Assembly: GCF_009905605.1 (NCBI RefSeq)
Contig: NZ_JAAAKZ010000011.1
Coordinates: 1-64,000 of the forward strand
Length of the DNA stretch: 64,000 nt
Origin: Runella sp. CRIBMP
Lineage (GTDB): Bacteria > Bacteroidota > Bacteroidia > Cytophagales > Spirosomataceae
Direction: 5' to 3'
Made by a program: the position numbers and the translations under genes. Positions 4,637 through 50,227 of the stretch are shown in pieces. The notes below the pieces were generated by a model, which made no database searches, was not told where the DNA came from, and saw only the letters and a program-made list of their open reading frames with translations. Every line of letters starts with the position of its first letter. Within the stretch, counting starts at the first letter, position 1.

Positions 4637-5890
4637 ATGAAAAATGCCAAACCGAATTATGTCATTCCTTTCGCTTTAGTGACAAGCCTTTTTTTTCTGT
4701 GGGGTATTTCAAATAACCTGACGGGTATCCTGATTCCGCACTTACGAAAAGCGCTTTTACTGACCAACACGCAGTCTACTTTCGTGGATACGGCCGTTTA
4801 TTTGGCTTATTTTTTAGCGGCCATTCCGGCGGGATCAGTGCTGAAGCGCTTTGGTTATAAACATGGGATTATTACAGGGCTGTTGGTTTTCAGCGCAGGA
4901 GCGTTTTTGTTCATTCCCGCCGCCGATAGCCGCAGTTTCAGTCTCTTTCTGTTGGGGCTGTTTATCATCGGCTGTGGACTGACGATGCTCGAAACGGCGG
5001 CCAATCCGTACGCCACCAAACTCGGTGATCCCCAAGGAGCGACCGCTCGCCTCAATTTAGCCCAGTCCTTCAACGGTCTGGCGGCTTTTCTGGCTCCCAT
5101 GATCGGTACGCTGTTTATTCTTTCGGGAAAAGAATACTCTGCGGCAGAACTTGCCGCCATGCCGGTGGCAGAAAAAATGGCCTATCTCACCGCCGAAGCT
5201 GCTTCCGTGAAAATGCCTTACCTGATTTTGGGGAGTTTTCTGCTGGTGCTGGCCGTGGTTTTTGCTGTGCTGAAATTTCCCGAATTTAAAGAAGGAACCG
5301 GCGGAGTATCTTCGGGCAGCATTGGCAAAGCCCTCAAATATAAGCACTTGGTTTGGGCTGTCACAGCCCAGTTCTTTTACGTGGGAGCCCAGGTCTGCGT
5401 AACGAGTTTTTTTATCAGAATGGCTGTTTCGGGCGGCGGAGTGGACGAGAAAACGGCAGGGTATTATCTCGGGGTATACGGTCTGCTGTTCATGTCAGGC
5501 AGGTTTATCGGAACAATCATCATGCGGTATATTCAACCCGCAACCCTTCTTTCCGTATACGCCTTACTCTGTATACTTCTCAGCGGTGTGGCTATTTTTG
5601 CCGAAGGTAAAAACGTGGTACTGGCTTTGGGCGGTTTGGGATTTTTTATGTCGATCATGTTTCCGACGATATTTTCACTGGGTATCAAAGACCTGAACGA
5701 AAATACCAAACCCGCCTCTTCGCTAATTGTCATGTCTATCATTGGCGGGGCTATTTTTCCAGTAATCATGGGTAAGATCATTGACAACGCCGGTGATGAT
5801 ATTCAGAAAGGTTACGTTGTTCCTTTGCTGTGCTTTTTTATGGTTCTTTTTTTCGGCATGAAAGGCCATCAACCTAAAAACTCCATATAA
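4637..5890 (+). CDS. fucP: L-fucose:proton symporter (MFS, FucP type)
   Basis: This 417-residue protein has twelve hydrophobic segments and the FucP-family opening (FFLWGISNNL near residues 20-29), the ETAANPYATKLG string near 118-130 and the RLNLAQSFNGLA string following it. It would carry L-fucose, or a related deoxy sugar, across the inner membrane with protons. The gene starts 9 bases after the truncated dehydrogenase and 2 bases before the mutarotase, so it belongs to the same operon. Length and motifs are intact, in contrast with both neighbours. Related sugar porters of the same family (glucose/galactose GluP) look similar, so fucose specificity rests partly on context. Confidence 0.85.
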   Translation: MKNAKPNYVIPFALVTSLFFLWGISNNLTGILIPHLRKALLLTNTQSTFVDTAVYLAYFLAAIPAGSVLKRFGYKHGIITGLLVFSAGAFLFIPAADSRSFSLFLLGLFIIGCGLTMLETAANPYATKLGDPQGATARLNLAQSFNGLAAFLAPMIGTLFILSGKEYSAAELAAMPVAEKMAYLTAEAASVKMPYLILGSFLLVLAVVFAVLKFPEFKEGTGGVSSGSIGKALKYKHLVWAVTAQFFYVGAQVCVTSFFIRMAVSGGGVDEKTAGYYLGVYGLLFMSGRFIGTIIMRYIQPATLLSVYALLCILLSGVAIFAEGKNVVLALGGLGFFMSIMFPTIFSLGIKDLNENTKPASSLIVMSIIGGAIFPVIMGKIIDNAGDDIQKGYVVPLLCFFMVLFFGMKGHQPKNSI

Positions 5891-5892: not shown

Positions 5893-6234
5893 ATGAAACA
5901 ATTCTGTTTAGCTTTGGATTTAAAAGATGATGCCGGGCTGATCGCCGAATACGAACGGTTGCATCAGAATATTTGGCCTGAAATCTAAGCGTCGATCATT
6001 GATTCGGGTATTGTGAGCATGGAAATTTACCGTATCGGCGTTCGCCTGTATATGATCATGGAAACCGCCGATAATTTTTCCTTTGAGGCAAAACGGAAAG
6101 CAGATGCCGAGAACCCGAAAGTCAGGGAATGGGAAGATTTTGTATGGCAATACCAACAGGCCTTACCGATGGCCAAAGAAGGAGAAAAATGGCTGATGAT
6201 GACTAAAATTTTTGATCTGAAAAATAAATCATGA
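5893..6234 (+). pseudogene. L-rhamnose/L-fucose mutarotase (DUF718) with an in-frame stop codon
   Basis: Reading from the ATG at 5893 gives a 113-codon mutarotase of normal length (a LALDLKDD start, ERLHQNIWPEI, then a tail with NPKVREWEDFVW and WLMMTKIFDL), except that codon 32 (5986-5988) is TAA. Homology continues in the same frame directly after it (IIDSGIVSMEIYRIG). This is a simple nonsense mutation, with no frameshift. The enzyme interconverts anomers of the sugar in the cytoplasm. An internal ATG at 6019 could restart translation but would lack the first strand and the conserved histidine-containing N-terminus. The stop overlaps the ATG of the next gene by the ATGA arrangement, so the gene was once translationally coupled. 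A sequencing error would have to be excluded. Confidence 0.82.
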
Positions 6235-7379
6235 CACCACTACAGTACAATACCGATTATCCGTCAGTTGATGACCTGATACGTATGGCCAAAAAGCGCG
6301 TTCCCCGCTTTGCCTTTGAATATTTGGACGGAGGCTGCAATGAGGATGTAAATCTGATCAAGAATACGGCAGAACTCCGGGAAGTGGAATTAAAACCCTA
6401 CTACCTTTCCAAGCATACGGGCTCCACCCTCAAAACCGAACTTTTCGGACATATCTACGACGCTCCTTTCGGGATCGCCCCCATCGGATTACAGGGGTTG
6501 GTGTGGCCCAATGCCCCGGAAATATTGGCAAAAGCGGCTTTACAGCATAATATCCCCTTTATTTTAAGTACCGTTTCCACCGCTAGTATCGAGCGAATCG
6601 GTGAATTGACCGAAGGAAAGTTTTGGTTTCAGTTATACCATCCCAAAGAAGATACGTTACGGGACGACATCCTTGACAGAGCCGAAGCGGCAGGCTGCAA
6701 GGTACTGTGCGTCCTGTGCGATGTACCCAGTTTCGGGTTCCGCCCCCGCGACATTCGTAACGGCCTGGCGATGCCGCCCAAAATGTCTTTGACTAATTTT
6801 CTGCAGATTTTCGGTAGACCCGCCTGGGCCCTGAATACCCTCTATCATGGACAACCCGGTTTTGCCACCATGAAAAAATACATGCCCAAAGGCTTGAATA
6901 TGAAAGCGCTGGGCGCTTATATGAATCAAACGTTTTCGGGACGGGTCAACGAAGCCAAAATCGCCGCCATCCGTGACCGATGGAAAGGAAAACTGGTACT
7001 GAAAGGAGTGGCAAGCGAGGAAGATACCGAATTGGCCGTAAAACTAGGGCTGGATGGTATCATTGTCTCCAATCACGGAGGCCGCCAATTGGACGCGGCT
7101 CAATCGGCGATAAAATCGCTCCTGCCGATTGTTGAAAACTATAAGGGGAAAATCAAAATTATGATGGACAGTGGCGTTCGTTCGGGACCCGACGTAGCCC
7201 GTACCCTTGCAAGCGGAGCAGATTTTGCCTTTATGGGCCGCACCTTTATGTACGGGGTGGGTGCCCTGGGCAATGAAGGAGGCAACCATACCATCAGTAT
7301 GCTGAAAGTGCAATTGCAGCAGGTAATGGATCAGATATGCTGTGAGCGGGTGGAGGACTTTCCGAATTTTTTGGTTTGA
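6231..7379 (+). CDS. FMN-dependent alpha-hydroxy acid dehydrogenase (L-lactate dehydrogenase-like)
   Basis: The 382-residue TIM-barrel protein belongs to the lactate/glycolate oxidase family. It has the RVPRFAFEYLDGG start near residues 23-35, APIGLQGLVWP for FMN contact, and the diagnostic SNHGGRQLD near residues 280-288 with the catalytic histidine and the substrate-binding arginine. DSGVRSGPDV and the GRTFMYG phosphate site follow. It would oxidise an L-2-hydroxy acid to the keto acid, passing electrons to quinone or oxygen. Next to fucose genes the likely substrate is L-lactate, the end product of non-phosphorylating fucose breakdown (inference). The start codon overlaps the mutarotase stop. 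Confidence 0.85.
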   Translation: MTPLQYNTDYPSVDDLIRMAKKRVPRFAFEYLDGGCNEDVNLIKNTAELREVELKPYYLSKHTGSTLKTELFGHIYDAPFGIAPIGLQGLVWPNAPEILAKAALQHNIPFILSTVSTASIERIGELTEGKFWFQLYHPKEDTLRDDILDRAEAAGCKVLCVLCDVPSFGFRPRDIRNGLAMPPKMSLTNFLQIFGRPAWALNTLYHGQPGFATMKKYMPKGLNMKALGAYMNQTFSGRVNEAKIAAIRDRWKGKLVLKGVASEEDTELAVKLGLDGIIVSNHGGRQLDAAQSAIKSLLPIVENYKGKIKIMMDSGVRSGPDVARTLASGADFAFMGRTFMYGVGALGNEGGNHTISMLKVQLQQVMDQICCERVEDFPNFLV

Positions 7380-7400: not shown

Positions 7401-8717
7401 ATGGCCTTAATTATCACTGTTTGCGGACTTATCCTACTGGTTTTATTCATTTCCTATTTTAAAGTTCATACTTTTTTAAGCTTTATTGTTGTCTCTTTGG
7501 GGGTTGGTCTGGCTTTGGAGATGCCACCACAGGCCATTCTGAAAGCCATACAGCAGGGAATGGGAAGTACGTTAGGATCGATTGTGTCCATTATTGCCCT
7601 TGGGGCAATGCTCGGAAAATTGGTTGCGCAAAGCGGGGCGGCACAACGTATTTCGACCGAAATGGTGAAGTTTATCGGCACAGATTATGTACGCTGGGCG
7701 TTTATGATCACGGGTTTTATCGTAGGTTTACCTTTGTTTTATTCCGTGGGTTTTATGCTTTTGGCTCCATTGGTCATCACCTTTGCCTATCGTTTCAAAC
7801 TCCCTGCCGTTTACATCGGGCTTCCCATGCTGGCCTCGCTTTCCGTAACGCAGGGGTATTTGCCCCCGCACCCTGCTCCCCTGGCGATTGTAAAGCAGTT
7901 TAATGCCGACATGGGTTTGACCCTTTTCTACGGAATCATTGTGGCGATTCCGGCCATACTGATTTCGGGGGCACTGTTCGGGGTAACGCTGAAAAAATAT
8001 ACAACCCTTCCCAATCCGGCTTTCGTTGCTTCCGATTTGCCTGAATCAGAAATGCCTTCGCTGTTCAGCAGTCTTTTTTCGGTGTTATTACCCATTGGGT
8101 TAATCGGTGCAACGACTGTTCTTTCCTCCTTTCTGCCCGAAAATTCATTTCTTTTTGAGGCACTCGGTTTCATCGGCGACTCCACCGTAAGCATGTTTAT
8201 TTCGGTATTGGCGGCCGTGTATCTGCTGGGTATCCGGCAAAACCGAAAAATGGCGGAGATAACGGCCCTTTTGGGAGATTCCATCAAAGACGTAGCCATG
8301 CTTTTTCTGATTTTTGGGGGAGCGGGAGCGCTGAAACAGGTCCTGACAGATGGCGGGGTCACCCAATCCATTGTCGAACAGATGCAGCATTCCACGCTTC
8401 ATCCGCTTATTTTGGGGTGGGGGATGGCCGCTGTCATTCGGGTGGCGGTAGGTTCATCCACCGTTTCAGGTATTACAACGGCTGGATTTATGGCTCCTTT
8501 GCTATCCACAACGCAGACCGAACCGCACCTGATGGTGTTGAGCATCGGGGCGGGGAGCATGATGTTTTCGCACGTAAACGATGCTGGCTTCTGGCTTTTT
8601 CGGGAATACTTTCAACTATCCTTGGCAGATACCCTCAAAACCTGGTCGGTGATGGAAACGCTGGTTTCGGTATCAGGTTTGTTAGGCGTGATGCTGTTAA
8701 ATGCAATAATCGGTTGA
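7401..8717 (+). CDS. GntP-family sugar-acid/proton symporter
   Basis: This is a 438-residue polytopic protein with about 12-14 hydrophobic segments and the GntP-family signatures: a GLPLFYSVGFMLLAPL string near residues 112-127, a GYLPPHPAP loop near 151-159, and an AVGSSTVSGITTAGF string in the second half. Members take up gluconate, idonate or related aldonates. It starts 21 bases after the hydroxy acid dehydrogenase and is the last gene of this operon. In this context it could import a fuconate- or lactate-like acid. The sequence identifies the family but not the substrate. Confidence 0.85.
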   Translation: MALIITVCGLILLVLFISYFKVHTFLSFIVVSLGVGLALEMPPQAILKAIQQGMGSTLGSIVSIIALGAMLGKLVAQSGAAQRISTEMVKFIGTDYVRWAFMITGFIVGLPLFYSVGFMLLAPLVITFAYRFKLPAVYIGLPMLASLSVTQGYLPPHPAPLAIVKQFNADMGLTLFYGIIVAIPAILISGALFGVTLKKYTTLPNPAFVASDLPESEMPSLFSSLFSVLLPIGLIGATTVLSSFLPENSFLFEALGFIGDSTVSMFISVLAAVYLLGIRQNRKMAEITALLGDSIKDVAMLFLIFGGAGALKQVLTDGGVTQSIVEQMQHSTLHPLILGWGMAAVIRVAVGSSTVSGITTAGFMAPLLSTTQTEPHLMVLSIGAGSMMFSHVNDAGFWLFREYFQLSLADTLKTWSVMETLVSVSGLLGVMLLNAIIG

Positions 8718-8761: not shown

Positions 8762-8804
8762 TTGAATTTAATGCGACATTGAGGAATCCGTGATAAACGT
8801 AACA

Positions 8805-9377
8805 ATGACCGACGAAACCCTTTGGCAGGCGGTACGTGAAGGCAGCGAAACTGCCTTTGAGGCGTTGTATCGTCGGTATTTTCAGGTACTCTTCAGTTAT
8901 GGAAAACGCATTCACCAAGACGAAGATGCGGTAAACGATGCCATTCAGGATCTGTTTGTGGATATTTGGCGCAGTCGTCATTCGTTAAGTCAGGCCCAAT
9001 CGGTTAAATTTTATCTGATTCGTTCGCTTCGTCGAAAAATTCATCGCTCGCTCAAAGCCGATTTTCTCCATGGTGAAGAATGGGGAAAGGTAGAAGAGTC
9101 GTTTTTACCGATGGAAGACTCACCGGAAACCTTATTTACCCATGAAGAAGATACCCTGATTCAGTCAGAAAAGTTAACGGCCTGGTTGAGTCAATTACCC
9201 CCCCGTCAAAATGAGGCGCTTCTGCTTCGGTATTATCATAATTTTGAGTATTCAGAAATTGCCGACCTTCTTCATATCAAAGAGCAAACCGCCCGTAACC
9301 TTGTTCAGAAAGCCCTTCAGATCCTTCGTAAACTGGCTATTTCCTTGATTATCATTGCCGTGCCGTTTTTTTTATGA
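8805..9377 (+). CDS. ECF RNA polymerase sigma factor (FecI-like), module 1
   Basis: This is a sigma-70 region 2 plus region 4 protein of about 190 residues. DAIQDLFVDIWRSR represents region 2.2-2.4, and a helix-turn-helix (SEIADLLHIKEQTARNLVQKAL) represents region 4.2. A GTG at 8790 is also possible; the ATG at 8805 puts the conserved TLWQAVREGSETAFE start near the N-terminus as in relatives. The next genes are FecR, SusC with an N-terminal STN signalling domain, and SusD. That is the standard trans-envelope relay in which ligand binding to SusC releases the sigma factor to transcribe the import genes. A short hydrophobic tail ends the protein. Confidence 0.9.
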   Translation: MTDETLWQAVREGSETAFEALYRRYFQVLFSYGKRIHQDEDAVNDAIQDLFVDIWRSRHSLSQAQSVKFYLIRSLRRKIHRSLKADFLHGEEWGKVEESFLPMEDSPETLFTHEEDTLIQSEKLTAWLSQLPPRQNEALLLRYYHNFEYSEIADLLHIKEQTARNLVQKALQILRKLAISLIIIAVPFFL

Positions 9378-9399
9378 TTTTTTCAATTTTTTTTTCGAT

Positions 9400-9423
9400 T
9401 CAGGAGGTTGAAAACCTTCCTGA
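9400..9423 (+). other. Hairpin between sigma and anti-sigma genes
   Basis: TCAGGAGGTT and AACCTTCCTGA pair with one bulged base around a GAA loop, just upstream of fecR 1. The stem buries an AGGAGG string. It could reduce read-through or translation; no functional proof can be had from sequence. Confidence 0.3.
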
Positions 9424-9477
9424 TTGTCTCTTTCTATACAGAATGGGAATAGTACCATTATTTCCAAAATAGTCACC

Positions 9478-10584
9478 ATGAAATATTCGCAATTCACCAC
9501 CAGCGATTTTATAGAAGATGCTCATTTTCGGCGATGGGTTCAATTCCCCACGGCCGAATCTTCGGCTTTTTGGGAAGATTTTTTACAACGGCACCCTGAA
9601 AAAAAGCAGGAAATTACCGTTGCCCAAAATATATTGTTGACCCTTGAAGCGCAGGTGGAGAGCGGTTTCTCCACAAAAGCAAATGAAGACAGGGTGTTTC
9701 AGCAGATACAGCAGCAGCTCGGGGAAGAGCAGGAGGTTAAAATCCGTCGCTTACCGGTGTGGGCTCGTTGGGCAGCGGCGGCATCAGTGGTATTGGTGAT
9801 GAGCTGGTGGTTTGTAAATCGTCAAACTGCCCCTATTGAGTTGACGTATGAAGTGAATCGGGAGCAGTCCGAATCACCATTAACAGAAAAAGTAAACGAT
9901 ACGCCCAAACCCATTCTTGTCACGCTTGCCGACGGAAGTTCCATTTTTCTAAGCCCCAAAAGTAGGATAAGTTACGCCAAAACCTTCAACGAAGGGAGTA
10001 AACGAGAGGTGTATCTGAGCGGAGAAGCATTTTTTGAAGTGGCCAAAAATCCAAATAAACCATTTTTTGTGTACGCCAATGAATTGGTCACCAAGGTACT
10101 GGGTACAAGTTTTAATGTAAAGGCGTTTCCCGAAGATAAAAATGTAGAGGTTAAAGTTCGGACGGGTCGAGTAGCAGTTGCTGTAGCCGAGAAAATCAGT
10201 AATCGGAAAAATATCAGCAATAGAGAACGTGAGGGCATAGTGTTGTTGCCTAATCAACAGGCAGTCTTATCACGGCAGGAAATCCGGTTGGTAAAGTCGT
10301 TGGTAGAAAATCCAACTTTACTGAGTGCCACTACACCCACACCGATGCGGTACTCATTTGTGTTTGAAGCTGCCCAGGCTTCTGATGTATTCAATATGAT
10401 TGAAAAGGCCTACGGGATTGACATGGTGTTTGATGAGGAAATTTTCTCCAAGTGCCAGTTTACCGCCGACTTAACCGACGAGTCACTCTATGAAAAACTG
10501 GATATTATCTGTAAAAGTATTGAAGCCAACTATCAGATTTTAGATGCTCAGATCATTATTTCGGGCAAAGGCTGTGCCAATTAA
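9478..10584 (+). CDS. FecR-family anti-sigma factor, module 1
   Basis: The 368-residue protein starts at the ATG at 9478 (a TTG at 9424 in the same frame is less likely, because MKYSQFTTSDFI matches the beginning of the second FecR in this window). It has a cytoplasmic sigma-binding N-terminus of about 90 residues and one membrane segment near 95-113. The periplasmic FecR domain follows (PILVTLADGSSIFLSP, then VYLSGEAFFEVAKNP and TKVLGTSFNVKAF), and then a C-terminal DUF4974/secretin-like domain that contacts the STN domain of SusC. It would hold sigma factor 1 inactive until its partner SusC signals. It is about 50 percent alike by eye to the FecR at 24448. Confidence 0.9.
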   Translation: MKYSQFTTSDFIEDAHFRRWVQFPTAESSAFWEDFLQRHPEKKQEITVAQNILLTLEAQVESGFSTKANEDRVFQQIQQQLGEEQEVKIRRLPVWARWAAAASVVLVMSWWFVNRQTAPIELTYEVNREQSESPLTEKVNDTPKPILVTLADGSSIFLSPKSRISYAKTFNEGSKREVYLSGEAFFEVAKNPNKPFFVYANELVTKVLGTSFNVKAFPEDKNVEVKVRTGRVAVAVAEKISNRKNISNREREGIVLLPNQQAVLSRQEIRLVKSLVENPTLLSATTPTPMRYSFVFEAAQASDVFNMIEKAYGIDMVFDEEIFSKCQFTADLTDESLYEKLDIICKSIEANYQILDAQIIISGKGCAN

Positions 10585-10650
10585 CCTATTATTCACCAAA
10601 CACAAAGCTGAATGAACTGAACCGGTACCTGATTATCCATTAAAAAAAGA

Positions 10651-10682
10651 GAAGTCGGCAATGCACCACCATCACCGACTTC
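10651..10682 (+). terminator. Hairpin after fecR 1
   Basis: GAAGTCGG (10651-10658) and CCGACTTC (10675-10682) form a perfect 8-bp stem about 67 bases after the fecR stop. No strong T-run follows, so it may be a weak terminator or an RNA-processing structure that separates the regulatory genes from susC. Confidence 0.45.
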
Positions 10683-10705
10683 ATAAGCCCCTATCGCGCG
10701 AACGA

Positions 10706-10724
10706 CATCTGTAGTGTACAGATG
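10706..10724 (+). promoter_or_regulatory. Palindrome in the susC 1 leader
   Basis: CATCTGTA, loop GTG, TACAGATG is a perfect 8-bp inverted repeat 47 bases before the susC start. It could be an mRNA leader hairpin or a protein-binding site near the sigma-dependent promoter. Confidence 0.4.
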
Positions 10725-10771
10725 CGGGGGTGTTTTGTCAAATTTTTCGTTTAACAAAAACATTCAAATCT

Positions 10772-13700
10772 ATGAAAAAAAGTAACACTGCCCGGCATTG
10801 GGCGGTTAAAATCATGCAATGGTCCTTTATACATCTGTGTATTGCCCTGATTTTTGCTAATCTTTCGTTTGCTGATGACGCAGCGGCGCAGGAGGTGCTG
10901 GAGCGTCGTATTTCGATTCAGGTTACCAATCAGAACATTAATTCAGTACTTTCCGAAATTGAAAAAATTGCCGAAGTAAAGTTTTCGTACAGTCCCAATC
11001 TCATTCGGGCATCCCGTAAAATTACGGTAACTGCCTCCAACGAGAAACTTTCGGCGGTGTTGGAAAAACTGCTGACTCCCCAAAAATTGTCTTACGAAAT
11101 TGTCGGAAGGCAGATCATTCTCAAACGGGGAATATCGGAAAAAACCCAAACCGGACAACTTGAGCTCCCAAACGCATTTCCCCAAATGCTCGACCAAATC
11201 ATTACAGGAACCGTCACCGATGAAAGCGGTTCCGGATTGCCTGGGGTAAGTATTTTGGTCAAAGGAACCCAACGCGGCACCACGACGGATGCTGGTGGTA
11301 AATACAAAATAGACGTACCCGATGGCAGTGCAGTTTTGGTGTTTTCGTTTGTGGGGTATTTGTCGCAGGAGGTAGCGGTTGGGAATCAAAGCCAACTCAA
11401 CCTAAGCCTTAAAGTAGATACCAAGACGTTGGATGAGGTAGTGGTTACGGCATTTGGTATCAAGCGCGACCAAAAGGCCTTAGGATATGCTTCACAAAAA
11501 GTAGCCGGTGAACACATATCAGCCGTCGGCAATACCAACATTCAAAACTCATTGCAAGGGAAAGCAGCGGGGGTCCAGGTACGATTGAGCAGTGGCATGC
11601 CGGGCCGTCCTGCCCTGGTAAATATCCGGGGCTCCCGTTCCATTACGGGTTCAAATGAGCCTCTGTATGTCATTGACGGTTTACCCGTGGCGGCCGGGGG
11701 GCGTTCCATTGATTTCAATCCTGCGGATGTGGAATCAATGGATATTTTGAAAGGACCGGCGGCGGCGGCCCTGTATGGCGTAAGGGCGTCGAACGGGGTG
11801 ATCGTTATTACGACCAAAAGCGGCAAAAACGCCAATCGCAAGCCTACTGTTACGTTTGAATCACAATTTGCTCAGGATAAAGTTAGTTTTTTACCCAAGT
11901 TGCAATACGAGTACGCACAGGGAAATAACGGTGTGTTTGATCAAAACGGATTATTTGCCTACGGCCCCAAAATCAGTACACTCGGTACCTATACCAATTT
12001 GTTGGGTCAGCAGGAACAGGCCGCTTCGTACCGAAATATGGAGGAGTTTTACGGAACGGGTTCTACTTTCAATAATAATTTGGAAATAGCACAGGGTGGA
12101 AGTTTCGGCAACTACGCCATTGGGGTAGGCCGCACTGACCAAACGGGGGTGATTGCCAATACCGGCTTGCAGCGCACCAACATCAAATTCAACGGATTGT
12201 TGACCCCGTTTTCGAAATTCAAAGTAGGTGTCTCCATAAATTATGCAGATATTAACGTTAATGACTTTCCCGATGAGGTAGGAAACGCTGCTTTTTTTCG
12301 TACTGTTTACGAAACTCCACCTTCCTACAACCTGAAAGGAAAACCTTATGCCGAGGCCACTGACCCTTACCGGCAAATCCTGTTTCGAGCCGCCCAAAAC
12401 AACCCCTATTGGATTGTAGAAAACAACTTTCGAAACAGTCGGACTGCACGCACTTACGGAAACCTGTTTTTAGAATATCAATTGGCCAAAGGCTTGAAGG
12501 TGACTTATAGGGTGGGCTTGGACAATTTTAATACCAAAATCGAAACTTACGACGAATTGGGCACGGGGCCGACAGGAAGAACAAATCCACCAAGCGGAGG
12601 GAAATTTTTATTGCAAAACCAACAGGAAACTCAGCTTAACTCTAACTTATTTTTGAGTTATGACCGAAATTTGACCAAAGATTTGGTACTGAATGTGATT
12701 GCAGGAAATGAGTTGTTTGACATTCGTCGTACCAACAACAGCACCAATAGTGCAAATCTGGTAGTGGGCGACTGGCCCAACATTGCCAACGGCACAACCA
12801 TTACCGCCAACAACAGCAACAACGCCCAACGAGTTGTAGGTTTTTACGGCAATGCAAACCTTGGCTACAAAGAAATGTTGTATCTGAACCTGTCGGCTCG
12901 GCAGGATTATGCCTCCAATTTACCTTCAGGCAAGCGCTCTTTTCTGTATCCTTCAGCAGGGTTGAGTTTTGTATTGACTGAAGCCGTGCCATCACTCCAA
13001 AACCTGTTTACTTTTGCCAAACTGCGAGCCAACTACGCCGAGGTAGGTCAATTGGGACAGCTTTTCGTCAATGGCGTAGGCTACTCGGCTGCCAATCCTG
13101 GGTTTCAATTTCCGCTCAACGGAGTGGCTGGGTTTTTGCCAAGCAGTACCAGCATCAGTTCTACGCTTCGCCCTGAAAACACCCGTAGTGTAGAATTGGG
13201 AACGGAACTGCGTTTTCTAAAAAATCGAATCAGTGTTGATTATACCTATTTCAGAAGCCTATCCGACGGACAGATATTTGGTATTCCGCTGCCTCCTTCC
13301 ACGGGTTTTGGCAGTCAGGTGAATAATGCCGGAAAAATGCTTTCGAGGGGGCATGAAATTATGCTTCGTCTGACTCCCCTGAAAAACTCCGACTTCCATT
13401 GGGACTTCAACGTTAATTTCTCGAAATACAAAACCACCGTTGAAGAACTGCCCTCGGGCCTGACCCGCATTTTGCTGGCAGATGCCCAATCAAAAGTTCA
13501 ACTGGTGGCAGAAAAAGGACAGGTGTATCCTTCTTTCTACGGTCGTCCCTACCAACGAGACCCTGCTTCAGGCCAAATTGTGGTAAGTTCCACCAACGGA
13601 ATTCCATTGCAATCACCGACACTGCAAATTTTGGGTACACCCAACCCTGACTTTGAATTCAATTTTATCAACTCGTTTCGGTTTAAGTCTTTGACCTTTG

Positions 13701-14197
13701 GTTTTCAGGTAGATTGGCGCAAAGGGGGGCTGTTTTATTCTCAGTTACAGGACGAATCAAGGGTAAGGGGTTTATCAGAAGCTACGCTCGACCGGGAGAT
13801 TCAACAGGTGATTCCCGGCAAAAAAGGAAGGTTTGTAAACGGGGCCTTGGTAGTAGAAGGTGATAATGACGTTGCCATTTACAAAACCAACACGTATTGG
13901 GCCGCATTGAGTGCCAACCATGAATCTAACTTAGACGATGCCACGTTTGTTCGATTACGGGAAATAAGCCTCAATTATGATCTGCCTGCTGCAATCACCA
14001 AAAAAATTGGTATGTCAAGGGCAAGTCTTTTTTTGACGGGCCGTAATTTGTTCCTGATTACCAACACGTTTGTTGATCCCGAATTGAACATGACGACTAA
14101 TTTTTCAGGAGCCAGTACGGGTAATTCGGTGGGAATTGAGTGGTATCAACAACCCCAAACCCGCAGTTTAGGAGGAGGGATCCGCCTCAAATTTTAA
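10772..14197 (+). CDS. SusC/RagA TonB-dependent outer-membrane transporter with STN domain, module 1
   Basis: The product has about 1141 residues from the ATG at 10772 (the upstream GTG at 10730 adds 14 residues before the signal peptide). Order of parts: signal peptide, STN domain (about 45-105) that reads out to FecR, CarboxypepD-regulatory domain (about 135-215, GTVTDESGSGLPGVSILVKG), the SusC linker DEVVVTAFG, plug domain (about 235-345) and a 22-strand beta-barrel ending in a terminal phenylalanine (GGGIRLKF). It imports an oligomer or sugar derivative too large for porins, using TonB energy, with the SusD lipoprotein downstream as a lid. The STN domain ties it to sigma factor 1. The ligand is unknown; the neighbouring FAD enzymes are the best clue. 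Confidence 0.93.
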   Translation: MKKSNTARHWAVKIMQWSFIHLCIALIFANLSFADDAAAQEVLERRISIQVTNQNINSVLSEIEKIAEVKFSYSPNLIRASRKITVTASNEKLSAVLEKLLTPQKLSYEIVGRQIILKRGISEKTQTGQLELPNAFPQMLDQIITGTVTDESGSGLPGVSILVKGTQRGTTTDAGGKYKIDVPDGSAVLVFSFVGYLSQEVAVGNQSQLNLSLKVDTKTLDEVVVTAFGIKRDQKALGYASQKVAGEHISAVGNTNIQNSLQGKAAGVQVRLSSGMPGRPALVNIRGSRSITGSNEPLYVIDGLPVAAGGRSIDFNPADVESMDILKGPAAAALYGVRASNGVIVITTKSGKNANRKPTVTFESQFAQDKVSFLPKLQYEYAQGNNGVFDQNGLFAYGPKISTLGTYTNLLGQQEQAASYRNMEEFYGTGSTFNNNLEIAQGGSFGNYAIGVGRTDQTGVIANTGLQRTNIKFNGLLTPFSKFKVGVSINYADINVNDFPDEVGNAAFFRTVYETPPSYNLKGKPYAEATDPYRQILFRAAQNNPYWIVENNFRNSRTARTYGNLFLEYQLAKGLKVTYRVGLDNFNTKIETYDELGTGPTGRTNPPSGGKFLLQNQQETQLNSNLFLSYDRNLTKDLVLNVIAGNELFDIRRTNNSTNSANLVVGDWPNIANGTTITANNSNNAQRVVGFYGNANLGYKEMLYLNLSARQDYASNLPSGKRSFLYPSAGLSFVLTEAVPSLQNLFTFAKLRANYAEVGQLGQLFVNGVGYSAANPGFQFPLNGVAGFLPSSTSISSTLRPENTRSVELGTELRFLKNRISVDYTYFRSLSDGQIFGIPLPPSTGFGSQVNNAGKMLSRGHEIMLRLTPLKNSDFHWDFNVNFSKYKTTVEELPSGLTRILLADAQSKVQLVAEKGQVYPSFYGRPYQRDPASGQIVVSSTNGIPLQSPTLQILGTPNPDFEFNFINSFRFKSLTFGFQVDWRKGGLFYSQLQDESRVRGLSEATLDREIQQVIPGKKGRFVNGALVVEGDNDVAIYKTNTYWAALSANHESNLDDATFVRLREISLNYDLPAAITKKIGMSRASLFLTGRNLFLITNTFVDPELNMTTNFSGASTGNSVGIEWYQQPQTRSLGGGIRLKF

Positions 14198-14229
14198 GTA
14201 ACGTTTTACAACCATATGCTTCAATTCCA

Positions 14230-15678
14230 ATGAAAAAGACCCTATACTTCAGTGCTTTCCTGTCACTTATTCTCAGTGCGTGCTCAGACGAAAAACTCAA
14301 TGAGATTGACACTAATCCCAATATCATTTCTGACGCACCATTGAATACCATTCTCCCTGCTGCTCAAATGATGGTATTTCAACGGGTGGTAGGCAGCATT
14401 TCCATCATTAGTGGCTATGCTTCAGAACACACCAATTTCACGGGAGTAAATACGGCTACCAAATTGCAGATTGGCGGTGCTTCTACCCTCGGCGTAAGCG
14501 GTGGTACCAACTGGACGAGTGGTTTTCAGGCGATACGCTATTTCAACGACGTTAGAGCCAAAGCTGATAAACAGCAACGTCAGGGCTATGCGGCCATTGC
14601 CGATATTATGTCGGCTTATACTTTATTACTTTTGGTAGATACCTACGGTGATATTCCTTACAAAGAGGTAGGTCTGGAGAGTATCATTCAGCCAAAGTTT
14701 GACAAAGCCCAGGACTTATATGCCGAAATGCAGAAATTGCTCGATGCAGGTATTCAAAAATGCGACCAGGCAACTACGGCGGCCACTCGCCCGGGAAACG
14801 ATGATTTGGTGTTTAAAGGCAATATGACGCTTTGGAAAAAAACGGCTTGGGGCCTGAAAGCCCGTTTGTTAAATCGCCTGAGCAATGTAAGCCCCAAAGA
14901 TGCCGATGTTTTAACGGCTATCGGGAATTCGTTTTCCTCTGCCGAAAACTTCACGGTCACGGGTTATCAGAGCAATCCTGAAAACGCCAATCCCATTGCC
15001 AACAACTTTATGAATGCCTCTACCATTGTGATAGCCGACGGAATTGTCACGGCCATGAAGTCGTTTCTTGAATCAAATGAAGATGTGTTGGCCGACCCGA
15101 GAGCCAATATTTGGTTTACCAAAATTGGCGGTAAAGTCATAACGCCCCCCACAAGCAAGGCAAATACCGACGTAACCCTCAACGGTACGCTGTATTCAAA
15201 ACCTTTGTATCTTCAAAACCGTACTTCACCTTTGCCCTTATTGACTTACACCGAATTGAAATTTATCGAAGCTGAAGCTCAATTGCGTTTGGGTGATAAA
15301 GCCAAGGCATACACCGCCTACGATGCAGCCGTGCGGTCGGCGATGGCCCAATCGGCTGTTTTTAACTCAGCAGCGGCGATTACTGCTGCTCAAATCAACG
15401 CTTATTTGGCCCGGCCAAAAGTGTTGATGGGAGTTGATAAATTGACATTGAAAGACATTATTACCCAGAAATACATATTCCTGTTCGTGTTTCAAAGTCA
15501 GGAAGCGTATAATGATGTCCGTCGTACGGGCCTGATTACCCTCAACGACCCTGATGGTACCGCAAAACGCTTTCCGTATCCGGTAGATGAAATCTCCCGT
15601 AACGCAAACGCTCCGCAGGTATCTGACCAGAATACTGTGTATCAGGACAATGCTCGCTTGTTTTGGGCTAAACTTTAA
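14230..15678 (+). CDS. SusD/RagB-family outer-membrane lipoprotein, module 1
   Basis: The 482-residue surface lipoprotein starts at the ATG at 14230, where a lipoprotein signal ends in LILSAC (Cys18). An in-frame start at 14140 inside susC would add 30 residues without a signal and is rejected. It has the SusD-like_2 layout: ETDTNPN-type start (DTNPNIISDAPLNTILPAAQ), the LLLLVDTYGDIPYKE string near 135-150, TPR-like helices, and a C-terminal FPYPVDEI motif. It binds the imported ligand on top of SusC. It is the last gene before a strong terminator. Confidence 0.92.
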   Translation: MKKTLYFSAFLSLILSACSDEKLNEIDTNPNIISDAPLNTILPAAQMMVFQRVVGSISIISGYASEHTNFTGVNTATKLQIGGASTLGVSGGTNWTSGFQAIRYFNDVRAKADKQQRQGYAAIADIMSAYTLLLLVDTYGDIPYKEVGLESIIQPKFDKAQDLYAEMQKLLDAGIQKCDQATTAATRPGNDDLVFKGNMTLWKKTAWGLKARLLNRLSNVSPKDADVLTAIGNSFSSAENFTVTGYQSNPENANPIANNFMNASTIVIADGIVTAMKSFLESNEDVLADPRANIWFTKIGGKVITPPTSKANTDVTLNGTLYSKPLYLQNRTSPLPLLTYTELKFIEAEAQLRLGDKAKAYTAYDAAVRSAMAQSAVFNSAAAITAAQINAYLARPKVLMGVDKLTLKDIITQKYIFLFVFQSQEAYNDVRRTGLITLNDPDGTAKRFPYPVDEISRNANAPQVSDQNTVYQDNARLFWAKL

Positions 15679-15722: not shown

Positions 15723-15740
15723 CTCTTTATTCACAATTTG

Positions 15741-17603: not shown

Positions 17604-17620
17604 ATTCTAAAACGATTTTA

Positions 17621-19006: not shown

Positions 19007-19015
19007 AAATAAAGC

Positions 19016-20902: not shown

Positions 20903-20910
20903 CGATACCC

Positions 20911-34802: not shown

Positions 34803-35669
34803 TTAGGCAATGTATTCCCGCTGGTACTGGATCGGGCTTTTTCCGGTCAGACTCTTGAAATATTTATTAAAGTTAGAAAATGTATGAAAACCGCTCTCGA
34901 AGCATATCTGGGCAATACTCAAATTATTTTCCCGAAGCAGTTTACACGCATGCCCTACCCGGAGCTCCAGCAGAAACCGGGAATACGTTTTGCGGCTGCG
35001 GCTTTTAAAATACCGACAGAACGAATTGGGGCTGATATTGGCTACCGCCGCCACTTCTTCAATACTGATCTTTTGCTGAAAATGCGTAAGCGAATAGGTA
35101 TATATACGATTAATGCGGTCGGTGTCGTCCTCGTCGAGTTGGGGCGTTTGAAAAGTGGTGGACAGTAGCTCATAGTCATGGCTTTGCGCCAGAATATCCA
35201 AAATTTGGTACAGGGTAATGAGTCGGTTGCCGGAGGTTTGATGCAGTAGCGACTGAATAAGTTCCCGGCTGGTATCCCGAGCGCTGTCCAAAAATCGAAT
35301 GCCGTGTTTGGCCCTTTGGATTAGTTCGGCAATGGCTTGATTCTCAGGAAGGGAAAGAAAGGTGCTGCCCCACATATCCCCCAAAAAGTGTACCACCGTC
35401 GCCTGAGCGTAAAGGTCTTCATTTCCCTGAAAATACTTTTCATCGCAGCGCCAGTAATGCGGCAGATTGGAGCCGATCAGCAGTACATCACCGCTGTTGA
35501 AATGCTGAATGCTGTCGCCAACAAATTGAGTACCAGAGCCCTGTTCGATATGCAATAATTCCAGCTCTGGATGATAGTGCCAGCGGTTATAAAAGTATAG
35601 CACCACATCACGACGTACACTGAATGACTGAGCCAATGCCTTCGATACTTTTAATAATTGCGGTTTCAT
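34803..35669 (-). CDS. AraC-family transcriptional regulator with cupin sensor domain
   Basis: The 288-residue protein carries an N-terminal cupin (HYHPELELLHIEQGSGTQFVGD in two strands near 31-52, then GDVLLIGSNLPHYW) and a C-terminal AraC double helix-turn-helix: SIEEVAAVANISPNSFCRYFK near 200-220 and SIAQICFESGFHTFSNFNKYFK near 250-271. It belongs to the sugar-responsive cupin/AraC type that senses a saccharide. It is divergent from the alpha-L-fucosidase remnant, and the region between carries copy B of a 21-bp direct repeat found also near the fucose operon and upstream of the hydrolase at 46306. It is therefore the best candidate for the regulator of those sites (inference). Confidence 0.87.
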   Translation of the reverse strand: MKPQLLKVSKALAQSFSVRRDVVLYFYNRWHYHPELELLHIEQGSGTQFVGDSIQHFNSGDVLLIGSNLPHYWRCDEKYFQGNEDLYAQATVVHFLGDMWGSTFLSLPENQAIAELIQRAKHGIRFLDSARDTSRELIQSLLHQTSGNRLITLYQILDILAQSHDYELLSTTFQTPQLDEDDTDRINRIYTYSLTHFQQKISIEEVAAVANISPNSFCRYFKSRSRKTYSRFLLELRVGHACKLLRENNLSIAQICFESGFHTFSNFNKYFKSLTGKSPIQYQREYIA

Positions 35670-35710: not shown

Positions 35711-35741
35711 TGCCAAAATAATGGTAAATATTGCCAAAATA
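35711..35741 (-). promoter_or_regulatory. Direct-repeat element, copy B (TGCCA/TGCCA spaced 21 bp)
   Basis: TGCCAAAATA at 35711 and again at 35732, exactly 21 bp apart, with TGG in the middle. It sits 42 bp upstream of the AraC gene and about 175 bp upstream of the fucosidase remnant, where an autoregulator would bind. Confidence 0.55.
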
Positions 35742-35914
35742 GATGAATTTACACTTGATTCTATTTCATTTTTTTGTTGAAGAATTCTATTCTGGCTATT
35801 TTTTACCGATAAAATAATTAAATCTCAGACGCACAGAGAGAACCAAGGAAAACCGTCTTTCCGATAAGCTCTTAATTTTACTTTAATCTCGTCTAATTCA
35901 ACACTTTCTTACCA

Positions 35915-46191: not shown

Positions 46192-46219
46192 TGCCAAAAT
46201 AGTGGAAAAAGTTGCCAAC
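46192..46219 (+). promoter_or_regulatory. Direct-repeat element, copy C (TGCCA/TGCCA spaced 21 bp)
   Basis: TGCCAAAATA at 46192 and TGCCAA at 46213, 21 bp apart, with GTGGAAA between them, the third copy of the element at 3896 and 35711. It is 87 bp upstream of the hydrolase gene and about 180 bp from the susC 3 -7 box. Confidence 0.5.
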
Positions 46220-46305
46220 ATCTGCGGAGTAAACCTTGGAAAAACAAAGGTTATTTGCAGTATAATGTCTATAAAAAATGTACTAATATTTCCTGATACA
46301 GCACT

Positions 46306-47535
46306 ATGCAACTGTTTTATCTATTTCTCCTTGTGTTTTCGATGGGTGTACAGTCTGTTCAGGCTAAGTATGTTGAGATCAACATTCAGCCCCAAGCAGG
46401 AGAACAGTTCAAATCTGCCGCGTATCGGTTATGGATTCCTCGCAATACGGCTACCGTTAGGGGAATAATTGTCAAACAGCACGGCTGCGGTACAGGAGCC
46501 TCCAATCACGGGCTCAACCACGCCAATGATCTTCAATGGCAGGCCCTGGCCCAAAAGCATCAAATGGCACTGTTAGGTACGGAGCTGACTAATTTTGAAG
46601 CCTGTTCGCAGTGGTTCAATACGCAGGCAGGTTCAGGAAATGCCTTTCTCCGGGCACTGCAGGCTCTTGCCGAAAAGACGGGTCATGCCGAGTTGACTGC
46701 CGTTCCGTGGGCATTATGGGGTCATTCGGGCGGCGGGTTTTGGTGTACAGGGATGCTGTTTGACCATCCTAAAAGTGTACTGTGCGCTATACCGAGGTCG
46801 GGTGGGTATGCTTCCATGGTTTGGAATGCCGCTGTAAAAGAAATCCCGGTCATGTGGATGGCAGGTGAAAAAGACATTGTTGACGGTCAGGATTATGTCA
46901 AAGCGCTTACCTTCAAATCCTTTAATGCATACCGACGCCTCGGGGCGTATTGGGGGGTAGCTATTGATCCCAAAGCCGACCACGGCAACCGCGATGGCCG
47001 CAGTTTTTACATACGATGGATGGATGAAATGCTTTCGTTGCGACTCCCGAAAGAGGCCCGAAAGCCCGTGCTGTTGGATTCCCTGATAGGTTGGTTGGGG
47101 CATCCGACTTCGTTTGAGATCAAGCCTTTTGCGGCTGTACCTGAAAAACGAAATGATTGGGTTTGGCTGCCTTCCGAATCGGCCGCTCATCACTGGCAAG
47201 AGTTTGTCCGTAGGGGATGGGTGACGGATACTTCAGCCCCGCCCACTCCGCAAAACCTATCCCTAAGCCCTGCCTCATCGACTGGGGTCATGTTGAAATG
47301 GGAGGCGGAGATTGATTTGGAGAGCGGAATAAAGCAGTTTACTATTTATAGGAACGGTGCATTGGCAGGAACAGTGCCGGGGCAGAAATCCAATTTTCAC
47401 GATGCGCCGGAGCCCGCGAATCCACTTTTTCACTACGTGTTTTCTTCACTGAGTCAATCGGACAAAATCACCGTTACGGCAGTAAATTATCAAAATCTCG
47501 AAAGCGGAAAAAGTAAAGAAATCAGTATAAAGTAG
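46306..47535 (+). CDS. Secreted alpha/beta hydrolase with C-terminal fibronectin type III-like domain
   Basis: The 409-residue protein has a signal peptide ending near QSVQA (residue 20). An alpha/beta hydrolase domain of about 280 residues follows: KQHGCGTGASNHG near 57-69 (oxyanion region), the nucleophile elbow GHSGGG with Ser141, an acid candidate in GEKDIVDGQD near 183-192 and a histidine in KADHGN near 219-224. A beta-sandwich of about 100 residues (TSAPPTPQNLSLSPASSTGV split near 305-324) ends the protein, like a fibronectin type III module. It probably is an esterase acting on acylated glycans (inference). Copy C of the direct repeat lies just upstream. Confidence 0.78.
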   Translation: MQLFYLFLLVFSMGVQSVQAKYVEINIQPQAGEQFKSAAYRLWIPRNTATVRGIIVKQHGCGTGASNHGLNHANDLQWQALAQKHQMALLGTELTNFEACSQWFNTQAGSGNAFLRALQALAEKTGHAELTAVPWALWGHSGGGFWCTGMLFDHPKSVLCAIPRSGGYASMVWNAAVKEIPVMWMAGEKDIVDGQDYVKALTFKSFNAYRRLGAYWGVAIDPKADHGNRDGRSFYIRWMDEMLSLRLPKEARKPVLLDSLIGWLGHPTSFEIKPFAAVPEKRNDWVWLPSESAAHHWQEFVRRGWVTDTSAPPTPQNLSLSPASSTGVMLKWEAEIDLESGIKQFTIYRNGALAGTVPGQKSNFHDAPEPANPLFHYVFSSLSQSDKITVTAVNYQNLESGKSKEISIK

Positions 47536-47623: not shown

Positions 47624-50227
47624 ATGAAGATCATTAAGTTGAAATATCTATTATTGGCCTTGTGTTTAACTGGATTCACGGTCGCTACTGACGTTCCCAG
47701 TAAACCCGACGACAGCCGTTTTACCAAGATCGTGCTGGACGATGACCTTAATGAACCCATGGAACTGGACATTGCCGACGACGGGGTGGTGTATTATATT
47801 GAACGGATCGGTAACCTCAACAGTTTTGACCCTAAAACCAATAAAAAAAAGCTCATTGCCAAGCTGAGTGTACGTGCTACCGCCGAAGACGGACTGCTGG
47901 GCCTGGCCCTTGACCCTAATTTCAGTACCAATCATTGGCTGTACATGTATTACGGCGACCCAGTACCTCAAAGAGAGGGGTTTGCAAACGTACTTTGTCG
48001 TTTTGAGGTCACAGCCACCGGATTGATCAATAAAAAAGAAATTCTACGCGTACCGCTGCTGCACGAAGGAGTCAATCATTCAGCGGGCTCGCTTGCCTTT
48101 GACGCGAAAGGGAATTTGTATCTTTCCACCGGCGATAACACCAGTCCATTTGAATCAGACGGCTATTCGCCTTCGGATGACCGTCCTGGCCGCCTTCGCT
48201 TTGACGCCCTCAAATCATCTGGCAATACCAATGACCTGCGCGGTAAAATTCTGCGAATTCATCCTACAATGGATGGCGCATATACCATTCCCGAAGGAAA
48301 CCTGTTTCCCAAAGGCACGCCCGGCACCCGTCCTGAAATCTACGTGATGGGATGCCGCAATCCCTACCGTATTTCGGTAGATAACCGTACTGGATTTCTG
48401 TACTGGGGAGAAGTGGGCCCGGATGCCGGGAATGACAGCCTGATGCGCGGCCCGAGAGGAAATGACGAAATCAATCAGGCACGCCGGGCAGGAAATTTCG
48501 GTTGGCCGATGTTTGTCGGCAACAATAAGCCGTATTATCGTTATGATTTTGATGCAAAGAAATCGGGAGAGCTGTTTGATGCTCGGAAACCGATTAATTT
48601 TTCCCGCAACAATACAGGGCTGAAAGAACTTCCTCCCGCCCAAAGCGCCTTCATTTGGTATCCGTATGCCGATTCTCCCGAGTTTCCAGAACTTGGTACG
48701 GGCGGGCGCAATGCCATGGGTGGCCCGGTCTATTATTACGATGATTATGAAGCTTTTGCGGGAAAGTTCCCCCGCTATTTTGACAAAAAACTTTTTATAT
48801 ACGACTGGATGCGAGGATGGGTGTTTATGGCTAAAATGAAAGAAAACGGTGATTTGGAAAAATTGGAGCGCTTTCTGCCGGAGACCGAATTCAACCACCC
48901 CGTTGATATGGCCTTTAATAAGAAGGGTGAGCTCTACATGCTGGAATACGGTACTTACTGGCGCGCCAAAAATACCGATGCCAAACTGGTTCGGATTGAA
49001 TACAACGAAGGTAACCGCGCCCCGGTGGCCAAAATTACAGCCGATAAAACCGTTGGAGCCGCGCCGCTGAAGGTCCGATTTTCGGCCAAAGGTTCTTTTG
49101 ATTATGATAAATCCGATTCGCTGAAGTATGAGTGGTTTTTTACGGCAAACACCGTACAGGGTCGGGGGCCTGAGCCAACCTTTACCTTTACCAAGCCTGG
49201 TATTTATCAAAGTCGAGTACGGGTCACTGACCCCAAAGGAAAAATGACGGAAAACAGACTGACGGTACGCGTAGGCAACGAACCGCCGACAGTCAGGGTG
49301 GACTGGCAGGGAAATCGCTCTTTTTATTTCGATGAAAGCGAAGTCAACTATCAGGTAAAAGTAACTGACCGCGAGGACAAAATCACTGACCCCAAGCGAA
49401 TCAAGGTATTGTTTCATTACCTGCCAGAAGGTGAAGACGCAGCAGGTATGATGGCTACAGGAGAAGTGACGCTGAAAGGCAAAACATTGATAGAACAAAG
49501 TGACTGCAAGGCATGTCACGCCCTCAATAATAAATCCGTAGGTCCGAGCTATCAGGAGGTAGCCAAACGCTATTCCGAAGTCGACATTTCGAAACTGGCC
49601 GAAAAGATCATCAACGGCGGGGGAGGGGTTTGGACCAAAGACCACGTGATGTCGGCGCACCCGCAACTGCTCAAGGAAGATGCCGCCGAAATGGTTCGGT
49701 ATATACTTTCACTCAACAGACCAAGCCCGCAGCTTCCGTCAAAGGGAAGTGTCAAACTAAGTCAGCCGCAGGGGAGCTATTTTATGATTGCCCGCTACAC
49801 CGATGCCGGAAGGCTGGTGGGGCAGGATATTGTTCGTTTGCGTCCCGCAAAATTTGTGGCTTCCGAAGCGGATGTATTCCATAAAGTGGCTAAGAAAAAC
49901 GCCCCCGCCCTAGGTGCTTCCACAATGAATTACAATGAAACTGGTGCCTGGATCTGCTTTAAAAATTTGGATTTGACCGGGTTAAAAACCCTGAAAACCA
50001 ATCTCTATACACCAAAACTGATCGGTACGCTGGAAATCAGGGCGGGCAGCCCGTTGGGGCCCGTCATTGCAGAAGTACCCGTCGGCGGTAAGGATGTAGA
50101 AGAAACCACGGTCCCCCTTCGTGCGTCCGAAGGGCTGCAGGATGTTTATGTCGTGTACAGGGAAACGTCGGGAGGAGCCAATATCTGGAAAACGCTGAAT
50201 CTTCGATGGCTTGAGTTTGGAAAGTAA
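47624..50227 (+). CDS. PQQ-type sugar dehydrogenase fused to PKD, cytochrome c and CBM6-like domains
   Basis: This is an 867-residue multidomain secreted protein. The signal peptide ends near residue 22. A glucose/sorbosone dehydrogenase-type beta-propeller (about 30-455) has the AEDGLLGLALDPNFSTNHW string and the HSAGSLAFDAKGNLYLSTGD block. A PKD domain lies at about 465-555 (NRAPVAKITADKTVGAAPLK), a cytochrome c domain with heme motif CKACH at 628-632, and a C-terminal carbohydrate-binding beta domain (about 715-867). It would oxidise a sugar at the cell surface or periplasm and pass electrons to its own heme. It follows the hydrolase by 88 bases and may share its transcript. Confidence 0.86.
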   Translation: MKIIKLKYLLLALCLTGFTVATDVPSKPDDSRFTKIVLDDDLNEPMELDIADDGVVYYIERIGNLNSFDPKTNKKKLIAKLSVRATAEDGLLGLALDPNFSTNHWLYMYYGDPVPQREGFANVLCRFEVTATGLINKKEILRVPLLHEGVNHSAGSLAFDAKGNLYLSTGDNTSPFESDGYSPSDDRPGRLRFDALKSSGNTNDLRGKILRIHPTMDGAYTIPEGNLFPKGTPGTRPEIYVMGCRNPYRISVDNRTGFLYWGEVGPDAGNDSLMRGPRGNDEINQARRAGNFGWPMFVGNNKPYYRYDFDAKKSGELFDARKPINFSRNNTGLKELPPAQSAFIWYPYADSPEFPELGTGGRNAMGGPVYYYDDYEAFAGKFPRYFDKKLFIYDWMRGWVFMAKMKENGDLEKLERFLPETEFNHPVDMAFNKKGELYMLEYGTYWRAKNTDAKLVRIEYNEGNRAPVAKITADKTVGAAPLKVRFSAKGSFDYDKSDSLKYEWFFTANTVQGRGPEPTFTFTKPGIYQSRVRVTDPKGKMTENRLTVRVGNEPPTVRVDWQGNRSFYFDESEVNYQVKVTDREDKITDPKRIKVLFHYLPEGEDAAGMMATGEVTLKGKTLIEQSDCKACHALNNKSVGPSYQEVAKRYSEVDISKLAEKIINGGGGVWTKDHVMSAHPQLLKEDAAEMVRYILSLNRPSPQLPSKGSVKLSQPQGSYFMIARYTDAGRLVGQDIVRLRPAKFVASEADVFHKVAKKNAPALGASTMNYNETGAWICFKNLDLTGLKTLKTNLYTPKLIGTLEIRAGSPLGPVIAEVPVGGKDVEETTVPLRASEGLQDVYVVYRETSGGANIWKTLNLRWLEFGK

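Follow-up and report, generated by a model that had tools for sequence, protein, structure and literature searches.

A 21-bp direct-repeat element as the likely operator of an AraC-family protein proposed to regulate L-fucose use in Runella and its relatives

A 39-bp element found three times in a window of 64,000 nucleotides of Runella sp. CRIBMP (positions 1 to 64,000 of contig NZ_JAAAKZ010000011.1) is very likely the operator of the cupin/AraC protein encoded in the same window, which would be a regulator and activator of the use of L-fucose, a 6-deoxysugar. The protein is a switch of a well-known kind, and the regulator itself is new. To the first-pass annotation of this DNA the present analysis adds a fixed spacing, the assignment to a fucose pathway and a partial family-wide layout. 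The features of the window are listed in Table 1.

The first-pass annotation had described intergenic blocks at 3896, 35711 and 46192, each with two half-sites 21 bp apart. All three were found as described, in intergenic DNA on the + strand and with no mismatch to TGCYAAAATA-N-TGGWAAA-NN-TTGCCAA, and the spacing was borne out at 3896/3917, 35711/35732 and 46192/46213, the second half-site being easily recognised at 3917 and at 35732, whereas that at 46213 is weak, the poorest of the three. A half-site covers about 18 bp (TGCYAAWATA plus TGGWAAA) and the full element about 39 bp, for example 35711-35749. With up to three mismatches allowed, the degenerate pattern matched three times in the 64-kb window against 0 in 100 dinucleotide shuffles, and a search of the Runella genome (7.13 Mb, 55 contigs) returned the same three matches and no others; the reversed control pattern gave 0 matches in the 7.13-Mb genome at the same tolerance. 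A looser pattern, again with up to three mismatches, gave 25 matches in the genome, namely the three sites (0 mismatches) and 22 more, against 10 for the reversed control. One of the 22 extra matches had two mismatches and 21 had three; 13 lay inside open frames of at least 200 aa, and two had the tetranucleotide TTTG 62 bp past the site start (+62), a feature treated below. These pattern searches extended over the whole genome, and the matrix scan over the window and selected loci; matches as good as the three blocks, which the annotation had named as evidence against a regulon, were found neither by pattern in the genome nor by matrix in the window.

One of these two looser-pattern matches is a candidate for a weak fourth site (19.8 bits); it lies beyond the window, at G000:C3:113434, on the same contig and 67 kb from site 3; it is intergenic, has TTTG at +62 and has remnants of SDR, IolO-like epimerase and RpiB genes downstream. 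A looser-pattern match at locus L153 (8.1 bits, TTTG at +62) was set aside as a site. A Crp-type site was rejected because the published Bacteroides motif, as given in the excerpts available from PMC3878776, is a palindrome and the element here is a direct repeat.

Table 1. Features of the window around the three sites
Feature	Position	Strand	Remarks
Site 1, half-sites 3896 and 3917	3896..3934	+	0 mismatches; 34.3 bits
Predicted -7 element, site 1	3954..3961	+	TTTG at 3958 = +62
Truncated SDR dehydrogenase, 2-keto-3-deoxy-L-fuconate dehydrogenase type	4229..4627	+	132 aa vs 254 aa in G095
FucP L-fucose:H+ symporter, full length	4637..5890	+	TIGR00885 351.8 bits (cut-off 280.4)
FMN-dependent L-lactate dehydrogenase type, LldD-like	6231..7379	+	PF01070 4.3e-116; LldD model 250.8 bits, under cut-off 550
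GntP-family permease	7401..8717	+	PF02447; TIGR00791 488.9 bits
ECF sigma / FecR / SusC / SusD run downstream of site 1	8790..15678	+	like runs directly behind the site in G119 and G075
AraC-family regulator, 288 aa, proposed fucose regulator	34803..35669	-	cupin-type sensor + double helix-turn-helix
Site 2, half-sites 35711 and 35732	35711..35749	+	0 mismatches; 42.8 bits; kept before araC in relatives
Predicted -7 element, site 2	35769..35776	+	TTTG at 35773 = +62
GH29 alpha-L-fucosidase remnant, 82 aa	35915..36163	+	72% to N-terminus of G126 GH29
Site 3, half-sites 46192 and 46213 (second weak)	46192..46230	+	0 mismatches; 22.8 bits
Predicted -7 element, site 3	46250..46257	+	TTTG at 46254 = +62
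Esterase-like protein, proposed site 3 target	46306..47535	+	74% copy behind G111 site
Glucose/sorbosone dehydrogenase-like multidomain protein, after esterase	47624..50227	+	PF07995 7.1e-36; 90% in G111

The candidate regulator matched HTH_18 (3.5e-21, 75.7 bits, cut-off 33.6), HTH_AraC (43.4 bits, cut-off 26.6) and AraC_binding (9.9e-7, 29 bits, cut-off 21.1), and Cupin_2 at 25.7 bits, under the cut-off of 27.2. The C-terminal double helix-turn-helix (HTH), the N-terminal cupin-type domain and an operator built from direct half-sites with a spacing of about 21 bp, which mark the AraC/XylS family, are all present. In Escherichia coli, AraC is a cupin protein that acts at araI1-I2 of araBAD through two direct half-sites about 21 bp apart, the second of them by the promoter, and its gene is divergent. 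The Runella system resembles it in the AraC-family cupin protein, the 21-bp direct half-sites, the promoter-side second half-site and the divergent regulator gene, and differs from araBAD in the operator letters, the Bacteroidetes-type promoter and the sugar; a DNA loop is unsupported here.

The conservation of the element upstream of araC orthologues was determined in relatives. An orthologue list (at least 56% identity), picked by hand from a homology search of 200 family genomes, placed orthologues in 49 of the 200, own genome included, and orthologues also occur in named members of Runella, Dyadobacter, Rudanella and Fibrisoma. Upstream of the orthologues the element lies some 40 bp (mostly 37-43 bp) from the start codon and points away from araC, with clear sites in at least six genera (codes g1, g3, g5, g19, g30 and g32); the lack of conservation that the annotation had named as a ground for dropping the regulon was therefore not found. 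A 40-column matrix was built from 48 of the 51 distinct araC upstreams, the window's own and the weak L124 and L126 being dropped, with an effective sequence number of 8.8 after down-weighting of similar sequences. Its column-to-column correlation was positive only at offset 21 among offsets 5-29. When the window was scanned with this matrix, the window sites ranked first to third although absent from the training set (scores in Table 1), and the next best match in 64 kb scored 7.9 bits. Markov sequences of the same length (64 kb, n = 100) reached 20.5 bits at most, a value that site 3 exceeds only narrowly; with the 27-bp core, the three sites scored 33.6-36.7 bits (site 3, 34.7) against 19.5. 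Two genomes of genus g32 outside the training set, G112 and G141, gave 27.8 and 30.1 bits. An order-wide search of 291 genomes revealed, among the matches listed above 54%, only two outside the family, G244 (57%) and G259 (56%), both from another family; in these held-out genomes the element scored 34.1 and 34.7 bits, lay 46 bp from the araC start codon and faced LutA, LutB and LutC. The orthologue of G005 had only a weak site (11.1 bits).

Co-occurrence of element and orthologue, also suggested as a check, was evident: with the pattern at up to one mismatch, both were found in 40 of the 200 genomes, the orthologue only in 9, the pattern only in 16 and neither in 135, giving an odds ratio of 37.5 and a Fisher p of 1.6e-20, uncorrected for kinship. 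In all but one of the 40 genomes a match was no more than 100 bp away from araC; in the exception, G141, it was elsewhere, inside an open frame of 522 aa. By matrix, six of the nine orthologue-only genomes (G189, G144, G180, G079, G151 and G157, all in the training set) exceeded 35 bits, and the remaining three, outside training, were G112, G042 (25.2 bits) and G005. The 16 pattern-only genomes were examined except G009, G093, G094, G110, G154 and G181. Plausible sites were found in three Runella relatives, namely G075, G111 (where the site is degenerate) and G134, the last genome being 83% complete and its contig 5.6 kb long; in five of seven further ones the match fell inside an open frame of at least 200 aa.

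The genes that the element faces in relatives indicate the pathway. The annotation had suggested that such sites would stand before deoxysugar genes, and L-fucose transport and catabolic genes do face the site in many relatives, as expected of an L-fucose utilisation regulon. In G126 the facing operon encodes FucP (split over two frames), LutA, LutB, LutC and a galactarate/altronate-type (GD_AH) dehydratase, then an SDR, an FAH-type hydrolase, another SDR, which at 411.7 bits passes the cut-off (300) of the L-fucose dehydrogenase model, and a GH29 fucosidase. In each of the 34 named Dyadobacter loci, genes for the dehydratase, an SDR, the hydrolase and LutA stood on the site-facing side; two Dyadobacter loci that were scanned each had a gene of fuconolactonase-like type (at 272 and 278 bits, under the cut-off of 400), and in one of them FucP was above its cut-off. 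The parts available of PMC11199699 describe a non-phosphorylating L-fucose route 3 that ends in pyruvate and L-lactate (for further pathway background see the excerpts of PMC11378808). The target operons hold the same enzyme types, differing from route 3 as described there in the galactarate/altronate type of the dehydratase and in the LutABC or LldD-like lactate oxidation genes alongside; formation of L-lactate by that route fits the LutABC of relatives and the LldD-like gene of the window. An oxidative fucose locus has also been reported in Algoriphagus marincola HL-49, according to the portion available of PMC5507952, in which the family of its regulator is not given.

On the other hand, a rather unlikely alternative is that the regulator senses L-rhamnose, another 6-deoxysugar, or a shared pathway intermediate. 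For the FAH-type hydrolase the closest model was that of 2,4-didehydro-3-deoxy-L-rhamnonate hydrolase, although the match stayed under its cut-off, and the fucose and rhamnose routes converge on one intermediate, as stated in the excerpts of PMC11199699. The FucP, GH29 fucosidase, L-fucose dehydrogenase and fuconolactonase-like genes of the target operons argue for L-fucose as the sugar sensed.

Fucose genes do not accompany every orthologue. None of the tested ones was found within about 9-10 kb on either side in L121-L126 (orthologues 56-61%), nor in the surrounding DNA examined at the Runella loci L064, L108 and L110, where an orthologue is present. G126 carries two close homologues, each with a site, of 65% (L115, with the fucose operon) and 62% (L123, without it), so that L121-L123 may represent another paralogue that shares this operator. 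On a Saprospiraceae-labelled MAG contig (L068), FucP, dehydratase and GH29 genes accompany a Spirosomaceae-like regulator, and additional sites lie at 4681 and 10418; this locus can be read either as a binning error or as a transfer.

In the window, the placement of site 1 before a fucP operon held in that the site is upstream of fucP, but the first gene is the truncated SDR dehydrogenase, with fucP from 4637. The truncated SDR is 91% identical to the G095 copy and 60% to the G126 fucose-operon SDR over about 120 aa, and a counterpart of site 1 is present in G095 and G134. The LldD-like enzyme encoded further downstream would consume L-lactate made by the fucose pathway. Behind the site, G119 and G075 have directly the same kind of ECF sigma/FecR/SusC/SusD run as the window has downstream of site 1, and G129 has an ECF sigma gene. 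The positions of the element before ECF sigma genes in other Runella (L109:9400-9439, L111:9471-9510 and L114:3636) suggest that the sugar regulator may drive a sigma-factor cassette there. Four consecutive FAD-dependent oxidoreductases (PF12831) occupy window positions 15738-22305, behind SusC/SusD. Site 2 lies, as the annotation had it, between araC and the fucosidase remnant, which was probably its old target; longer GH29-type genes adjoin araC in L068 and L099. Site 3 has a degenerate counterpart (18.7 bits) in G111, before the same esterase/dehydrogenase pair. The esterase-like protein had no Pfam match and only a weak one, 31.2 bits against a cut-off of 150, to PHA-depolymerase. A YopX-domain protein (PF09643) is encoded at 63354-63824 of the window.

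In this strain the pathway appears to be damaged in part, so that the present role of the regulon may be reduced. Elsewhere in the genome, the closest FAH-type homologue (G000:C4:14282-15136) carries an in-frame stop, and two dehydratase homologues (62% and 60%) are open. G095 shows the opposite of the window, with a whole SDR and a fragment of FucP; the course of pathway decay thus appears to differ between sister lineages, with operators and regulator retained.

Binding of the element by one or more other AraC-family paralogues, and not only by the protein of the window, is improbable. G075 (L111) and G111 (L113) keep the element at 37.5 and 18.7 bits with no close AraC orthologue (best about 44%), paralogues agree to a large extent in layout and first box, and the two homologues of G126 each have such a site. 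Set against this, when 77 upstreams of paralogues of 40-53% were scanned with the matrix, none reached 20.5 bits (best 18.0) and 13 reached 10, and in a separate paralogue set only the Fibrisoma montanum / G018 upstream passed 20.5 bits (28.4). Moreover, it is the orthologue itself that the element precedes in at least six genera, and G075 may have lost its regulator recently, as its 27-bp core is identical to that of G119.

In many paralogue upstreams (L160-L173 and L174-L250, from several clades), different words are found about 40 bp ahead of the start codon. In 93 paralogue upstreams, grouped in 39 clusters, the mean best self-match peaked at period 21 with 8.77 of 18, compared to 7.57 in shuffles at that period (n = 100, sd 0.28, maximum 8.18) and to 6.95-8.05 at the other real periods from 10 to 35. 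At period 21, five of the 39 clusters scored 12 of 18 or more, against 0-2 clusters at other periods; in 10 of 39 cluster representatives TTTG stood 100-105 bp from the start codon. Since few clusters have a strong 21-bp repeat or the TTTG, the shared layout is a tendency, shown for some clades.

FCRYFK in HTH1 did not vary among the 61 orthologues and 17 paralogues compared, and HTH2 was variable at about residues 262-270. Residue 265, whose counterpart in MarA is presumably a position that contacts a base, varies together with a single base of the site: of 42 distinct orthologue/site combinations, the pair of residue 265 and site position 12 was Ala/T in 26, Ser/G in 14 and Ser/A in 2, hinting at a possible DNA contact. 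A quick tree (residues 1-250) placed two changes on each trait, which coincide, one of them on well-supported branches and with a long-branch warning; being too few for significance, these changes make the covariation suggestive only. A wider model is conceivable, though we hold it as tentative. The clade would keep a rigid layout, in which the operator stands some 62 bp ahead of the -7 of a divergent operon and some 40 bp ahead of the regulator's own start codon, the shared first box being read by the invariant HTH1 and the variable second by HTH2; the specificity of each paralogue would be readable from its own upstream, with residue 265 (Ser-G, Ala-T) in the code, and the Runella regulon would have survived the loss of some pathway genes and shifted to other targets.

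The distance from the element to the promoter bears on its mode of action. TTTG lies exactly 62 bp past the site start in all three window copies, where the spacing was first noticed, and it was counted afterwards in other sites. In 51 distinct araC upstreams, the window's included, TTTG was at +62 in 43, +61 in 6 and +63 in 1, and was missing in 1. An initial selection of nine non-araC sites, including two from the window, had it at +62 in eight and +61 in one. All 15 non-araC sites, that is, every non-araC matrix match above 16 bits in the scan of relatives' loci plus the window's two, several being the same site in sister genomes, had it at +62 in ten and +61 in one; of the four that lacked it, three were just past araC in Dyadobacter and one was on the opposite strand of another L068 site. 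Off-target rows had TTTG at +62 in 0 of 21 (20 distinct places, L034 and L127 being the same), 19 of the 21 being inside open frames of at least 200 aa, and the frequency of TTTG in the roughly masked non-coding DNA of the window was 0.0108 per position. Since TTTG is outside the matrix columns, the spacing is independent of how the sites were found. The held-out sites of G244 and G259 have TTTA in place of TTTG at +62. A second, weaker match (17.2-22.7 bits) was observed just past araC at L067:8907, L069:8925, L088:8929 and L099:8915, with TTTG at +62 in one of the four.

We take TTTG at +62 to be the core of the Bacteroidetes -7 promoter element TAnnTTTG. The distance from operator to core promoter is then fixed, as in class II araBAD-like activation, and points to the regulator being a class II activator with its second monomer in the -33 place. 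That the element mainly represses araC, as autoregulation with no activation of the facing genes, is very unlikely: its position about 40 bp before the araC start, also in Runella whose facing gene is lost or broken, is in line with such a role, but the element also precedes non-araC genes, points at them and mostly keeps the same +62 spacing to the -7. No convincing -33/-7 promoter for araC itself overlapping the site was seen by eye. Chance or a mobile repeat with no regulatory meaning has a negligible probability, since no equal copy was found in the rest of the 7.1 Mb, for which reason a mobile repeat was rejected, and the element keeps one conserved place across genera and a fixed spacing.

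These observations are consistent with an activator that would work as follows. Two monomers would bind head to tail, 21 bp apart, one per half-site, the second covering the region of the would-be -33 element upstream of the TTTG-type -7 that starts 62 bp after the site; from this geometry, the inducer-bound protein would recruit RNA polymerase to the gene faced by the site, which in many relatives heads an oxidative fucose operon. The predicted Runella targets are the SDR-fucP-lldD-gntP genes and later genes for site 1, the fucosidase remnant for site 2 and the esterase/dehydrogenase pair for site 3. The annotation had proposed that the AraC protein controls these loci and itself. Comparative genomics supports the first part; for the second the indication is one of position only, site 2 being 41 bp before the araC start codon, which suggests that the protein probably adjusts its own synthesis.

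Among regulators already described, one close in kind is RhaR (BT3768) of Bacteroides, an AraC-family protein whose predicted motif has a 21-bp direct-repeat periodicity according to the excerpts of PMC3870299 and PMC3878776; the former also predicts 21-bp-period direct repeats for AraC-family rhamnose regulators in Bacteroides and other groups. As far as these excerpts go, RhaR and the Runella protein have in common the phylum, the family, the role as activator of a deoxysugar pathway (proposed for the Runella protein) and the repeat period (PMC3870299, PMC3878776), and they differ in that RhaR serves L-rhamnose and a different kind of pathway. The FucR types recorded in the parts available of PMC12566272 and PMC3878776 are of the DeoR family in E. 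coli, GntR in B. thetaiotaomicron and IclR in C. jejuni. These proteins control L-fucose use but belong to families other than that of the proposed regulator (PMC12566272, PMC3878776, same parts). In the open-licence literature, no paper on an AraC-type fucose regulator in these genera was found.

A locus in a poorly studied family thus gains a proposed regulator, operator, promoter spacing and pathway, and the AraC family would join the protein families known to control L-fucose use. As some paralogues carry other letters in the same place, sugar regulators not yet characterised in these glycan-degrading bacteria may be decodable from sequence.
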